Assembly: GCA_964019055.1 (NCBI GenBank)
Contig: OZ025206.1
Span: 27,836,128-27,900,127 of the forward strand
DNA from: Anthopleura xanthogrammica
Lineage: Eukaryota > Cnidaria > Anthozoa > Actiniaria > Actiniidae
DNA: 64,000 bases
Direction: 5' to 3'
In this document: piece by piece, positions 31,293-54,112 of the stretch
Position numbering within the stretch: position 1 is the stretch's first letter
Layout of the letters: every line of letters starts with the position of its first letter
Position numbers and translations under genes: made by a program
Notes under the pieces: model-generated
Databases searched by the model: none
Seen by the model: the letters and a program-made list of their open reading frames with translations, nothing else
What the model was told of the DNA's origin: nothing

Positions 31293-33859
31293 ATGATGAA
31301 CAGTATATTAAGAACTCCCTTTCGACAGATTCTTCTTCAAGTCAACCAGACGTTGACTCCATATGAGCAGGAGTTTCGTTTCTTTTCCAAAGAAATGCTG
31401 CCCGAGCCTCATTCTGACATGAGTTTGCTCGAAATATTTGACGTTCTTGAAGATCAGCAAGTCATCTCGCCTTACGATGTTAAGCATTTGAAGGCTTTTG
31501 CTGTCGCTATTGGTCGTAATGATGTCGTAGAGTTACTAAAAGTGTACGAAACTAGAGTCCTTGTACAAATGGTGATTGAAGGATATCCGGATTTCAGATC
31601 GAGATCCAGAAGCATCATTGTACTTGAGACTGATTTCGTTGCACGATACTTGGTCAATAGCGGAGGAAGCAACTCAAGTGCCGCCATTAAAATGGCTTTA
31701 CGTAAGAATGAACGAGATGGTTTTCCACTACAAGTGGTTGTCAATAATCTCCTTCATCAAAAACTTCAAGTTGGGTTAACTTGGAAAACGGTGTTGGAGA
31801 TCCTTCAGATTTGCTCAGAGATCGTGTATGTACGATTTTTTTTCGCAAGGAACTTCAAGCAACTGATGTCCGACATTGAACAAATTGTGGATGTCCTGAT
31901 GATCAGTGTTGTTCCTTGGATGGCAGAGCATGGTGGACTTGTAAGTAGTTTTAGTGATTTATTATTTTTATTCGATTTATTTTTTAATTATATATTTTTA
32001 TCCAACTTATTGACGATGTTTTAGAGATAGCAACGTGCTCACGTTTGTTCCAATTAGACCTTTTTGCTTTATCACTATTTTCGACTTCGTGCGCTTTCAA
32101 AACAATAGGTGAGGTTAACTGTTTGACTCCTGGAGATTTTTGAGGTTTTTCAGTGTTTTTCTGGACCTAAACGTTCTCCAAGCCCTAGCAAGACCATATT
32201 TGGAGTTAAGATTGACACTGTCAGTGTTTTATGTAAATGAGGGATGACGTTTACTGGCTGTATGCTCACAGGCAGCCCAAACAATCCATTTTTAGCTATT
32301 TTTACAGTAAATGTATGGGACGATATACAACGTATTTTTTGTTGAAATAAATTTGAACATACCTTGGCCCTATGTTATTGTTAAAGGTATTTGGTGTCAT
32401 TCTGGGTGGTTTTTGGCCATTTTAGTGCGGTTTTTAAAAAAAATTGCCCACTAGTACTTTTTAAAAAACCGCTCTAAAACAGTCAAAAACCATCCAGAAT
32501 GACACCAAATACCTTTAACAATAACATAGGACCCATCTGTATGTCATCCCATACATTTACTGCACTTGGATGAAAACGCCCCATATTTTGAAAGTCCGAA
32601 TAGTTCAAGTATTTAAGAATAATATGAATCAATCATGATTATGAAAACCAGATTGGCAAAAATTTTAGCTTGGGAGCCACTCACAGTTTTTGGTTTAAAA
32701 ACTAAAAGAACAATAGGGTTGAGTAAATGATGTCATTTACTCACAATTTAGATGCTGAAAAAAGTATATAATTTTTATCCACCAATTTTGACTGTAAAGA
32801 AAATATGTTGCTTGGCTACTATTGGGATCATATAGATAAGTTTAACCAAGTTTCAAGGCATTTCCAATTTTCATCGATTTTCATCCAAGTGCCCCTTTAA
32901 GAGTCTCAAGAACACTTAAGAGAACATTTTGCAATATAAAAAACATAGATTTAGATGTAGAAACCGCAGTTGGAGCCATCTGTTAAACAACGTAATACAA
33001 ATTAGATACAAATTCATTATTTGCTTTCTGTACATATATATTTTTTTTCGAGTAGATTTTTTTGGTGATATATTTATATTCTCACATATTTTAATAAAGT
33101 TTTTTATAATATATTATTATTAAGGCATATTTTTTCCCCTGATCTTAGTAAAATGAGTGATTAGTGATTAGATTTAAATTCATTAATACCTTATACTATA
33201 TACCATATTTTGTAAAGTTTAATAAAGATTATTGCTGATCATTTTTATTATTTAATATCATTATCTTCATTATCATTTTCATCATCATCAATATAATTAT
33301 TATCATTGAATATCATTATCATCATTATCATCATTATCATTTAATATCATTATCATCATTATCATTATCAATTTTTATCATTATCATTATCATCATTATC
33401 ATCATTATCAATTAATATCATTATCATCATTATCTAATATAATTATCATTATCAATTAATATCATTATCATCATTATCATCATCATCATTATCATCATCA
33501 TCATTTACATACATACATACATATATTTATTTAGTGTCATTTTTTGTTATTACATTACATTTTACAAAGAATTATAACTTAACTTAAATTAAGACACAAT
33601 TTAATATCATTATCATCATTATCATTATCAATTTTTATCATTATCATCATTATCATTTAATATCATTATCATCATCATTTTCATTATCATCATTACCATC
33701 ATTATTATTATCTTATTGTTATTACCATTATTCATGGGTATTATTATCATTAGCATCATTATCATTACTATATGTTATTATCATTATTCATGGGTATTAA
33801 CTATTTTGTGCATGTATTATCAATTTTAGGATGGTCTTGGCTCAGTCATTGCCAAATAG
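31293..33859 (+). CDS. DED-Bcl-2-like fusion protein, copy 1
   Basis: Two exons (31293-31940, 33830-33859) encode 225 residues. Residues 1-90 form a death effector domain: FRQILLQVNQTLTPYEQEF, SLLEIFDVLEDQQVISPYDV and the R-x-D-type motif GRNDVVELL. Residues 110-225 look like a Bcl-2 core. TDFVARYLVNSGG resembles helix 1; ALRKNERDGF is a possible BH3; LTWKTVLEILQI matches BH1 (NWGRIVAFF in Bcl-xL). A helical pair leads to PWMAEHGGL|DGLGSVI, matching BH2 (PWIQENGGW|DTFVELYG). The donor (CTT|GTAAGT) is phase 0 and sits where the classical BCL2 intron lies. No transmembrane tail is present in the spliced form. Reading into the intron adds 27 hydrophobic residues. The first ATG was chosen; an in-frame TTG at 31278 lies in the UTR repeat. 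The function, linking DED adaptors with Bcl-2 control, is inferred. Confidence 0.8.
32369..32530. repeat. Long inverted repeat in the intron of copy 1
   Basis: CCTATGTTATTGTTAAAGGT at the left and ACCTTTAACAATAACATAGG at the right, with arms of about 65 bp and few mismatches. Copy 3 has only the left arm (52626-52735); its right arm is replaced by other sequence. Confidence 0.9.
33240..33790 (+). repeat. (ATTATC/ATCATT)n microsatellite in the intron of copy 1
   Basis: Degenerate ATT/ATC trinucleotide runs extend almost to the acceptor at 33829. An equivalent run is at 53450-53760 in copy 3. Confidence 0.95.
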
Positions 33860-33889
33860 ATAGTTATTTAATAGATAGAGGTTTGCATC

Positions 33890-51546: not shown

Positions 51547-51548
51547 TG

Positions 51549-54112
51549 ATGATGAACAGTATATTAAGAACTCCCTTTCGACAGATTCTTCTTCAAATCA
51601 ACCAGATGTTGACTCCATATGAGCAGGAGTTTCGTTTCTTTTCCAAAGAAATGCTGCCCGAGCCTCATTCTGACATGAGTTTGCTCGAAATATTTGACGT
51701 TCTTGAAGATCAGCAAGTCATCTCGCCTTACGATGTTAAGCATTTGAAGGCTTTTGCTGTCGCTATTGGTCGTAACGATGTCGTAGAGTTACTAAAAGTG
51801 TACGAAACTAGAGTCCTTGTACAAATGGTGATTGAAGGATATCCGGATTTCAGATCGAGATCCAGAAGCATCATTGTACTTGAGACTGATTTCGTTGCAC
51901 GATACTTGGTCAATAGCGGAGGAAGCAACTCAAGTGCCGCCATTAAAATGGCTTTACGTAAGAATGAACGAGATGGTTTTCCACTACAAGTGGTTGTCAA
52001 TAATCTCCTTCATCAAAAACTTCAAGTTGGGTTAACTTGGAAAACGGTGTTGGAGATCCTTCAGATTTGCTCAGAGATCGTGTATGTACGATTTTTTTTC
52101 GCAAGGAACTTCAAGCAACTGATGTCCGACATTGAACAAATTGTGGATGTCCTGATGATCAGTGTTGTTCCTTGGATGGCAGAGCATGGTGGACTTGTAA
52201 GTAGTTTTAGTGATTTATTATTTTTATTCGATTTATTTTTTAATTATATATTTTTATCCAACTTATTGACGATGTTTTAGAGATAGCAACGTGCTCACGT
52301 TTGTTCCAATTAGACCTTTTTGCTTTATCACTATTTTCGACTTCGTGCGCTTTCAAAACAATAGGTGAGGTTAACTGTTTGACTCCTGGAGATTTTTGAG
52401 GTTTTTCAGTGTTTTTCTGGACCTAAACGTTCTCCAAGCCCTAGCAAGACCATATTTGGAGTTAAGATTGACACTGTCAGTGTTTTATGTAAATGAGGGA
52501 TGACGTTTACTGGCTGTATGCTCACAGGCAGCCCAAACAATCCATTTTTAGCTATTTTTACAGTAAATGTATGGGACGATATACAACGTATTTTTTGTTG
52601 AAATAAATTTGAACATACCTTGGTCCTATGTTATTGTTAAAGGTATTTGGTGTCATTCTGGGTGGTTTTTGGCCGTTTTAGAGCGGTTTTTTAAAAAAAT
52701 TGCCCACTAGTACTTTTTAAAAAACCGCTCTAAGCCGTTCTTCTTGGAATTCGGTTGCCATGTTTTCGACTTTTTTCGAAAACCAGAGATTTTTGAGAGC
52801 CACTTTGTTCATCTATGGAGTGCTGGAGTGCATCATCAATTAGGTCTGGTAATTAGGTCAACTTGATCAAAATTGTTGAAGCTGGAATTTTTCATTTACT
52901 GCGATTCTCAATATTGAACTCAGACATTTCAACTGCTTATTGTGAAATTGGTTTTTCGCTGCCGTCAATCAAAACTAATCAGTCGGTACCTTTTATATTT
53001 TTGACTGGCGCGGCGGCAGCGAAAAACCAAATTCCAACGGGAAATTCGCAACTACCGAGTTCGCAGAATATTGAAAATCGCAGTAAGGTGCATTTTTTTA
53101 ATGCTTAAGAGTCTCAAGAACACTTAAGAGAACATTTTGCAATATTAAAAACATAGATTTAGATGTAGAAACCGCAGTTGGAGGCATCTGTTAAACAACG
53201 TAATACAAATTAGATACAAATTCATTATTAGCTTTCTGTACATATATATAATTTTTTTCGAGTAGATTTTTTTGGTGATATATTTATATTCTCACCTATT
53301 TTAATAAAGTTTTTAATAATATACTATTATTAAGGCATATTTTCCCCCCTGATTTTAATAAAATGAGTGATTAGTGATTAGATTTAAATTCATTAATACC
53401 ATATACTATATACCATATTTTGTAAAGTTTAATAAAGATTATTGCTGATCATTTTTATTATTTAATATCATTATCATCATTATCTTCATTATCATTTTCA
53501 TCATCATCATTATCAATTAATATCATTATCATCATTATCTAATATATTTATCATTATCATCATCATCATCATCATTTAATATCATTATCATCATTATCAT
53601 TATCAATTTTTATCATTATCATCATTATCATTATCATCATTATCATCATCATCATTTAATATCATTATCATCATTATCATTATCAATTTTTATCATTATC
53701 ATCATTATCATTTAATATCATTATCATCATCATTTTCATTATCATCATCACCATCATTATTATTAACTTATTGTTATTACCATTATTCATGGGTATTATT
53801 ATTATTATTATTATTATTATTATCATTAGCATCATTATCATTACTATATATTATTACCATTATTCATGGGTATTATTATCATTAGCATCATTATCATTAC
53901 TATATATTATTACCATTATTCATGGGTATTATTATCATTAGCATCATTATCATTGCTATATATTATTACCATTATTCATGGGTATTATTATAATTAGCAT
54001 CATTATCATTACTATATGTTATTATCATTATTCATGGGTATTAACTATTTTGTGCATGTATTATCAATTTTAGTATGGTCTTGGCTCAGTCATTCCCAAT
54101 ATTAAGCAATAA
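51549..54112 (+). CDS. DED-Bcl-2-like fusion protein, copy 3
   Basis: Two exons (51549-52196, 54074-54112) encode 228 residues. Exon 1 differs from copy 1 at only two residues (Val to Ile and Thr to Met in LLQINQMLTPYEQ). It has the same DED, BH1-like LTWKTVLEILQI and BH2-like PWMAEHGGL. Exon 2 gives YGLGSVIPNIKQ and then TAA, so the C-terminus is 3 residues longer than in copy 1. An AATAAA overlaps the stop codon (54108-54113), so a very short 3' UTR without the array is possible in this copy. The intron carries a MITE (52899-53083) and an ATC microsatellite. Confidence 0.8.
52899..53083. mobile_element. 185-bp MITE, TA target, in the intron of copy 3
   Basis: Ends are CTGCGATTCTCAATATT and AATATTGAAAATCGCAG with TA at both sides. 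Nearly the same element is at 60836-61019. Copy 1 lacks it. Confidence 0.88.
53450..54050 (+). repeat. ATC microsatellite and about 56-bp tandem repeat in the intron of copy 3
   Basis: Degenerate ATT/ATC runs, then four to five units of TATTACCATTATTCATGGGT followed by ATTATTATCATTAGCATCAT. Copy 1 has fewer units at 33720-33800. Confidence 0.93.

Follow-up and report, generated by a model that had tools for sequence, protein, structure and literature searches.

Death effector domains (DEDs) typify the extrinsic death pathway, as Bcl-2 folds do the intrinsic one, and the two normally reside on separate chains. Bid, a soluble Bcl-2-fold protein tied to caspase-8, carries a functional BH3 (Bcl-2 homology 3) motif and no DED. 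BFAR has been described as a bridge from DED proteins to Bcl-2 proteins, but it is a RING protein of the membrane that binds the latter, not a fusion of a DED to a Bcl-2 fold. In cnidarians, DEDs are fused to other immune or death domains: excerpts of the original reports describe DED-TRADD-N fusions (PMC8195603) and, in Nematostella, DED-NACHT proteins (PMC2575513), so that the partner is either an alpha/beta TRADD-N domain or the NACHT of NOD-like receptors (NLRs). Here we analyse a 64,000-nt stretch of the cnidarian Anthopleura xanthogrammica (the window; contig C1, 27,836,128-27,900,127, in a genome of 289.8 Mb), in which three tandem gene copies on the + strand combine a DED with a different kind of partner, predicted to be all-helical and Bcl-2-like.

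The open frames of the three copies (31275-32024, 42656-43366 and 51531-52280, all +) each contain one uninterrupted exon that encodes the DED plus the Bcl-2-like domain:

31293..31940, + strand: copy 1 coding exon 1, DED, linker and Bcl-2-like domain; 216 amino acids (aa), open frame, predicted donor CTT^GTAAGT, phase 0
42674..43324, + strand: copy 2 coding exon 1, DED, linker and Bcl-2-like domain; 217 aa, open frame, predicted donor CTT^GTAAGT, phase 0
51549..52196, + strand: copy 3 coding exon 1, DED, linker and Bcl-2-like domain; 216 aa, open frame, predicted donor CTT^GTAAGT, phase 0

An earlier note on this DNA had assumed that two exons must be joined to create the fusion. This is not so: both domains lie in the same exon, and the fusion is therefore independent of any predicted splice. 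The motifs quoted in that note largely held, with SLLEIFDVLEDQQVISPYDV, LTW(K/R)xVLEIL and PWMAEHGGL present in all three copies and the other two varying by one residue; only copy 1 has FRQILLQVN unchanged (LRVN in copy 2, LQIN in copy 3), and GRNDVVELL is exact in copies 1 and 3 (GRNDVAELL in copy 2). Coding exon 1 of copy 1 is 99% identical to that of copy 3, and across 1.37 kb, promoter and intron start included, the two match at 98%. Copy 2 is approximately 84% identical to both, and what it has in common with its neighbours is limited to some 730 bases surrounding exon 1 and a 3′ stretch rich in repeats; the single indel that separates it from copy 1 is a whole codon. A tblastn search of the window detected no additional copy. 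Searching the genome with copy 3 returned four full-length places, namely the window copies and C6:11741527-11742177 (copy 4), which is 49% identical (E 4.6e-48) and retains the complete architecture. Copy 4 as a query recovered the identical four places, plus six weak ones matched by its DED part only. By sequence, this is a four-member family, with three tandem copies in the window and one on another contig.

The N-terminal segment matched the Pfam DED family in all three window copies, bearing out the earlier proposal:

31320..31553, + strand: copy 1 DED, residues 10-87; Pfam PF01335, E 1.4e-7
42701..42931, + strand: copy 2 DED, residues 10-86; Pfam PF01335, E 1.5e-6, N-terminal piece alone 2.2e-7
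51576..51809, + strand: copy 3 DED, residues 10-87; Pfam PF01335, E 8.1e-8, piece alone 1.1e-8

Copy 4 matched more strongly (E 6.6e-12, 45.9 bits) and is the only one to exceed the curated cut-off of 35.9 bits, copies 1-3 falling slightly under it. All four copies carry an R-x-D-L/V charge motif (RNDV or RIDV), which aligned with the R-x-D-L of ten other DEDs from this genome at a position that we take to be DED helix 6. A genome-wide search found at least 33 DED places, including the four fusion copies, and the full-length AlphaFold model, built from three sequences and too poor to be of use (predicted local distance difference test, pLDDT, score 41.5), is helical in the DED part. The DED assignment is solid at the sequence level. 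The N-terminal DED with its R-x-D motif, matched by Pfam in 4/4 fusion copies, resembles that of FADD, caspase-8/10 and cFLIP; in contrast to those proteins, the fusion exon has no death domain, second DED or caspase domain, and a Bcl-2-like domain stands in their place.

The strongest evidence for Bcl-2 descent of the second domain is the position at which its exon ends. In all 12 Bcl-2 loci detected in this genome with PF00452, a donor-like GT in phase 0 directly follows GGW. The window copies end in HGGL^GTAAGT and copy 4 in ENGGI^GTATGT, giving GG(L/I)^GT in phase 0 in 4/4 copies, with the Trp of the BH2 GGW replaced by Leu or Ile. In the fusion copies and the genome's own Bcl-2 genes alike, one exon carries everything through BH2, and the GGW boundary is reported to be conserved in mouse pro-survival genes, a sponge and a placozoan in the excerpted text of PMC8998228. 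The four copies share one ancestor, so their agreement counts as one coincidence, not four. With this Bcl-2 exon boundary kept, the gene has the appearance of a Bcl-2 gene in which a DED took the place of the N terminus. Among the 12 Bcl-2 loci themselves, the most divergent (L047, G000:C14:10271944-10272264; 41.9 bits) retained the GGW exon end.

In sequence, the likeness of the domain to Bcl-2 is weak. The candidate domains lie as follows:

31590..31940, + strand: copy 1 Bcl-2-like domain, residues 100-216; alignment of BH1 W and BH2 PWM..HGG, hidden Markov model (HMM) score 11.2 bits
42971..43324, + strand: copy 2 Bcl-2-like domain, residues 100-217; PF00452 E 6.9e-4 on the C-terminal piece, AlphaFold helices
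51846..52196, + strand: copy 3 Bcl-2-like domain, residues 100-216; HMM score 11.2 bits, alignment

The BH1-like Trp and BH2-like PWM..xGG aligned to the matching places in the 12 genome Bcl-2 genes, as the earlier note had suggested, and the Trp and PWM.E.GG are invariant in 4/4 copies. PF00452 matched copy 2 (E 0.0017 at full length, 6.9e-4 for the C-terminal piece); when this piece was shuffled, Bcl-2 was matched in 0/10 cases and no family fell below E 0.03. An HMM built from seven Bcl-2 family fragments scored copies 1-4 at 11.2, 21.1, 11.2 and 11.4 bits, values reached by 1, 0, 0 and 0 of 2000 shuffles, and with a second HMM, built from the genome's own 12 Bcl-2 genes, the scores were reached by 3, 0, 1 and 5 of 5000 shuffles. 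The copy 2 signal stayed after removal of the last 12 residues, which contain BH2 (shuffles reaching it: 0/5000 with the first HMM, 24/5000 with the second). Aligning the four-copy profile with the profile of the own Bcl-2 genes (hhalign) gave a probability of 52% (P 1.5e-4) over a segment from BH1 through the GG of BH2.

In an AlphaFold model of the domain alone, made from copy 2, the helix order includes a long hairpin at the expected alpha5-alpha6 position, and there are no strands. Foldseek returned nothing at E <= 0.001 for either model; Bcl-xL, BAX, BAK and NRZ recur among the best 50 weak matches of the full-length model, as do NRZ, Bax, MCL-1 and Bcl-xL among those of the domain model. 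In a structure comparison, 9/10 Bcl-xL matches listed end at Bcl-xL residue 188, opposite the last residue of the model. CED-9 and the sponge and placozoan Bcl-2 structures were not among the matches listed, which is no evidence against them. Compared with multi-motif Bcl-2 family members, the fusion shares the helix order (in a low-confidence model), the BH1 Trp, the BH2 W..xGG and the phase-0 exon end after GGx, whereas it has a DED for an N terminus and GGL or GGI for GGW, and no NWGR, BH3 consensus or anchor exon was found.

Other identities for this domain were considered and rejected. PF09034 (TRADD-N) had no Pfam match in any of the four copies, which together with the absence of strands in the low-confidence model spoke against TRADD-N. 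Erf4 was a single weak match in copy 4 only (E 0.006), and a calcium-ATPase was matched weakly in copies 1 and 3 only (TIGR01517, E 0.014).

Copy 4 allowed us to look at selection over a longer period. Against copies 1-3 (NG86 method), nonsynonymous divergence (dN) is 0.44-0.45, synonymous divergence (dS) is 2.3-2.6, which is saturated, and dN/dS is 0.17-0.19. Split by domain, dN/dS is 0.14-0.16 for the DED and 0.24-0.25 for the C-terminal domain, suggesting that both have been maintained for a long time; identity to copy 4 is 58-60% and 37-41%, respectively. Architecture, duplication and long-term constraint are thus apparent from the sequences. Copy 2 differs from copy 1 by 36 replacement changes and 7 silent ones, a pattern indistinguishable from neutral (Fisher p 0.45), and positive selection was rejected on this basis despite a ratio above 1. 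Their replacements are fewer in residues 1-90 (8 in approximately 214 sites) than after them (28 in approximately 294; p 0.014). A further DED gene carrying the C-terminal domain was also sought: an HMM of this domain run on the 29 other DED places left copy 4 alone below E 0.1, in frames taken from about 1.5 kb per side, a reach that would not capture the domain on an exon farther away. Pattern matching to viral contigs gave 53 matches, none of them confirmed, and phage records gave none.

Downstream, each window copy has a candidate second exon that would add merely a short tail, for a predicted protein of approximately 225-228 residues. The candidate of copy 3 ends at 54112, where the interval of the earlier note also ends. 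Upstream, a TATA-like element precedes each of copies 1 and 3, in a region absent from copy 2:

33830..33859, + strand: copy 1 candidate exon 2, DGLGSVIAK and stop; acceptor attttag, phase 0, unproven
45297..45332, + strand: copy 2 candidate exon 2, CGHGCCSVIKE and stop; acceptor attttcag, phase 0, unproven
54074..54112, + strand: copy 3 candidate exon 2, YGLGSVIPNIKQ and stop; acceptor attttag, phase 0, unproven
31202..31209, + strand: TATA-like element upstream of copy 1
51451..51458, + strand: TATA-like element upstream of copy 3

No convincing membrane-anchor exon came up downstream when simple filters for acceptors and hydropathy were applied, and the fusion protein is probably soluble. 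Coral Bok-type Bcl-2 proteins also seem to be without an anchor, according to the excerpted text of PMC4715348.

Several results, the missing anchor among them, weigh against reading these genes as DED-Bcl-2 fusions. The best PF00452 score, that of copy 2, is 20.6 bits against a curated cut-off of 31.4, and Pfam found no Bcl-2 match in copies 1, 3 and 4, so the PF00452 support that the earlier note had anticipated came from one window copy, under the cut-off. TIGR00865 (bcl-2) matched the copy 2 domain stretch at E 0.069, which is chance level given two unrelated families at E 0.083 and 0.12 in the same copy. Without the last 12 residues, the HMM signal was gone in copies 1, 3 and 4, and when the own-gene HMM was run over 1207 frames from DED loci, the copy 4 exon came fourth (E 0.69), after three unrelated frames. 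The NWGR of BH1 is reduced to its Trp (TWRR, TWKT, RWKE), and by eye the alignment shows no L-x-x-x-G-D pattern of BH3 in the helix preceding BH1. AlphaFold modelled a long hairpin at the alpha5-alpha6 position, but with low confidence (pLDDT 61), and for this model VIA-align ranked designed proteins and condensin first; in sequence searches of the PDB the only matches were one ribosomal protein (E 0.58) and a pair of unrelated chains (E 0.8 and E 1). All donors are predicted from sequence. The protein database yielded 112 candidates for copy 2, none at E <= 1, and 15 for the copy 3 DED, none at E <= 10; this search requires exact 5-residue words and covers anthozoan proteins, and so excludes close relatives in that database only. 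The second domain could accordingly be a helical bundle of other origin whose resemblance to Bcl-2 is accidental, its profile evidence being weak and mostly BH2 in 3/4 copies, its matches to Erf4 and TIGR01517 comparably strong in copies 1, 3 and 4, and its structure matches at noise level. We regard this as improbable in view of the Pfam match on copy 2 and of a frame end at the exact base of the donor in 12/12 genome Bcl-2 loci. Descent from Bcl-2 is, in our judgement, highly likely, and the domain is probably a degenerate, stripped-down one. Because BH1 retains only its Trp, BH3 could not be recognised and the score lies under the curated cut-off, we do not class the fusion protein as a full Bcl-2 family member. 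A different objection is that the three window copies might be non-functional duplicates in decay. Silent changes are not in excess between copies 1 and 2, copy 2 has little in common with its neighbours outside exon 1 and the repeat-rich stretch, and the protein database searches gave no relative. However, 4/4 frames are open, the only indel between copies 1 and 2 keeps the frame, no predicted donor is damaged, TATA-like elements precede copies 1 and 3 and copy 4 diverged under constraint, which makes loss of function unlikely.

For function, the reading we favour, at about an even chance, is that the protein serves as a soluble DED adaptor at DED-caspase or DED-NLR platforms, where its anchorless Bcl-2 fold would scaffold or modulate caspase activation. 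The DED would dock, via its conserved R-x-D surface motif, into assemblies of FADD, tandem-DED caspases or DED-NLRs, and the Bcl-2 fold would there scaffold or modulate initiator-caspase activation, serving neither as a membrane pore nor as a canonical BH3 trap. Pore formation and BH3 trapping are unlikely because BH1 is down to a Trp, BH3 is unrecognisable and the search for an anchor was negative; that the domain acts at mitochondria like a canonical Bcl-2 protein is doubtful. The genome offers possible platforms: tandem DED pieces on contig C11 adjoin a caspase exon (E 1e-37), their position suggesting one gene, and another DED exon is followed by a frame that reads, by eye, like NACHT and leucine-rich repeats. 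The main rival is a FLIP-like decoy in which the DED alone matters, capping or competing in DED filaments to inhibit caspase-8, with the Bcl-2 remnant as a vestigial stabiliser. This would fit the better conservation of the DED relative to copy 4, the fewer changes in residues 1-90 between copies 1 and 2, and the degraded BH1 and BH3 hallmarks; the C-terminal domain is itself constrained, however, with the Trp of BH1 and the PWM.E.GG of BH2 unchanged in 4/4 copies, and we consider a decoy possible but rather doubtful. More speculative is a Bid-like switch, in which the DED reaches active caspase-8 and a cut at an interdomain L-x-T-D site frees the Bcl-2-like domain for Bcl-2 relatives or mitochondria. 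Candidate sites of this type occur in two window copies:

31623..31634, + strand: LETD, caspase-8-like motif between the copy 1 domains; sequence and motif scan, speculative
51879..51890, + strand: LETD, caspase-8-like motif between the copy 3 domains; sequence and motif scan, speculative

Copy 4 has LTTD between its domains, and [LIV][ETQ]TD arose within residues 89-118 in 40/20000 (copy 1) and 15/20000 (copy 4) whole-protein shuffles. The domain model has a pLDDT under 50 up to the motif point, although it was made from copy 2, which itself lacks L-x-T-D. The motif was picked after the fact, its Asp may sit in an alpha1/BH4-like helix, and the freed domain would have no BH3 consensus (by eye). 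The Asp is followed by Phe in copies 1 and 3 and by Pro in copy 4, residues that are poor for caspases at this position. In favour of the switch, the excerpted text of PMC4715348 reports coral caspase-8 substrate specificity to be functionally homologous to that of vertebrate caspase-8. On balance, release by caspase cleavage appears quite improbable; like Bid, the fusion would be a soluble Bcl-2-fold protein tied to caspase-8, with a possible but unproven L-x-T-D site. The earlier note had gone further and proposed that one molecule couples both death pathways. A DED followed by a probable Bcl-2-descended domain stands, but the coupling is hypothetical: the domain has no recognisable BH3 and no NWGR, and the simple filters gave no anchor exon. 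In its fullest form, the DED would recruit the protein to caspase-8 or a DED-NLR, and the Bcl-2-derived domain, released or repositioned at L-x-T-D, would modulate Bcl-2 relatives. The protein would then hold in one chain an equivalent of the caspase-8/Bid relay, created by a fusion within an anthozoan lineage; such a direct extrinsic-intrinsic link strikes us as unlikely.

The DED-Bcl-2-like fusion appears to be a new architecture made from known parts. In agreement with the earlier note, no described protein with exactly this pair of domains was found in the literature searched, a search that left most subscription papers and domain databases outside and does not prove priority. The excerpted text of PMC4715348 lists 11 Bcl-2 members in Acropora and similar numbers in Nematostella, with none noted there to have a DED, and that of PMC11251625 refers to nine putative Bcl-2 proteins in work on Nematostella apoptosis. 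Surveys tied to the Pfam cut-off would miss such genes because the Bcl-2 part scores below it, and our own genome-wide PF00452 search overlooked the family, listing none of the four fusion copies. The exon-boundary signature could uncover further degenerate Bcl-2 genes, and, as a constrained and duplicated DED-Bcl-2 fusion from an animal lineage that branched early, the family is a natural experiment on the direct wiring of the two pathways.

Other features of the window include a minisatellite with a unit of approximately 21 bases (by eye), common to all three copies and located 3′ of each (33956-34335, 45448-45787 and 54283-54561); read by eye, the three frames of its unit give PSIKENK, NQVSKKT and TKYQRKQ. 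Beside copies 1 and 3, a repeated fragment (34335-34946 and 54561-55444, approximately 95-97% identical to each other) resembles, by eye, a piece of retroelement pol. A heme oxygenase exon lies at 1654-2409 (+), its closest database entry being 96% identical and the Nematostella one 75% identical over 63% of the length. We also observed a 785-aa frame that resembles the reverse transcriptase of a non-LTR element at 7021-9378 (-; by eye), an exon of 704 aa at 28507-30621 (-) that contains RCC1 repeats and weakly matches alsin, and methyltransferase-like exons at 60296-61603 (+; by eye). Among the other DED places in the genome, a very long KKER-type repeat precedes the DED exon in the same frame at L003 (G000:C1:25249144-25249377). 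At L025 (G000:C19:221800-227500), two adjacent DED genes with frames of 352 and 396 aa run into two hydrophobic stretches (by eye), and their products may carry membrane helices.

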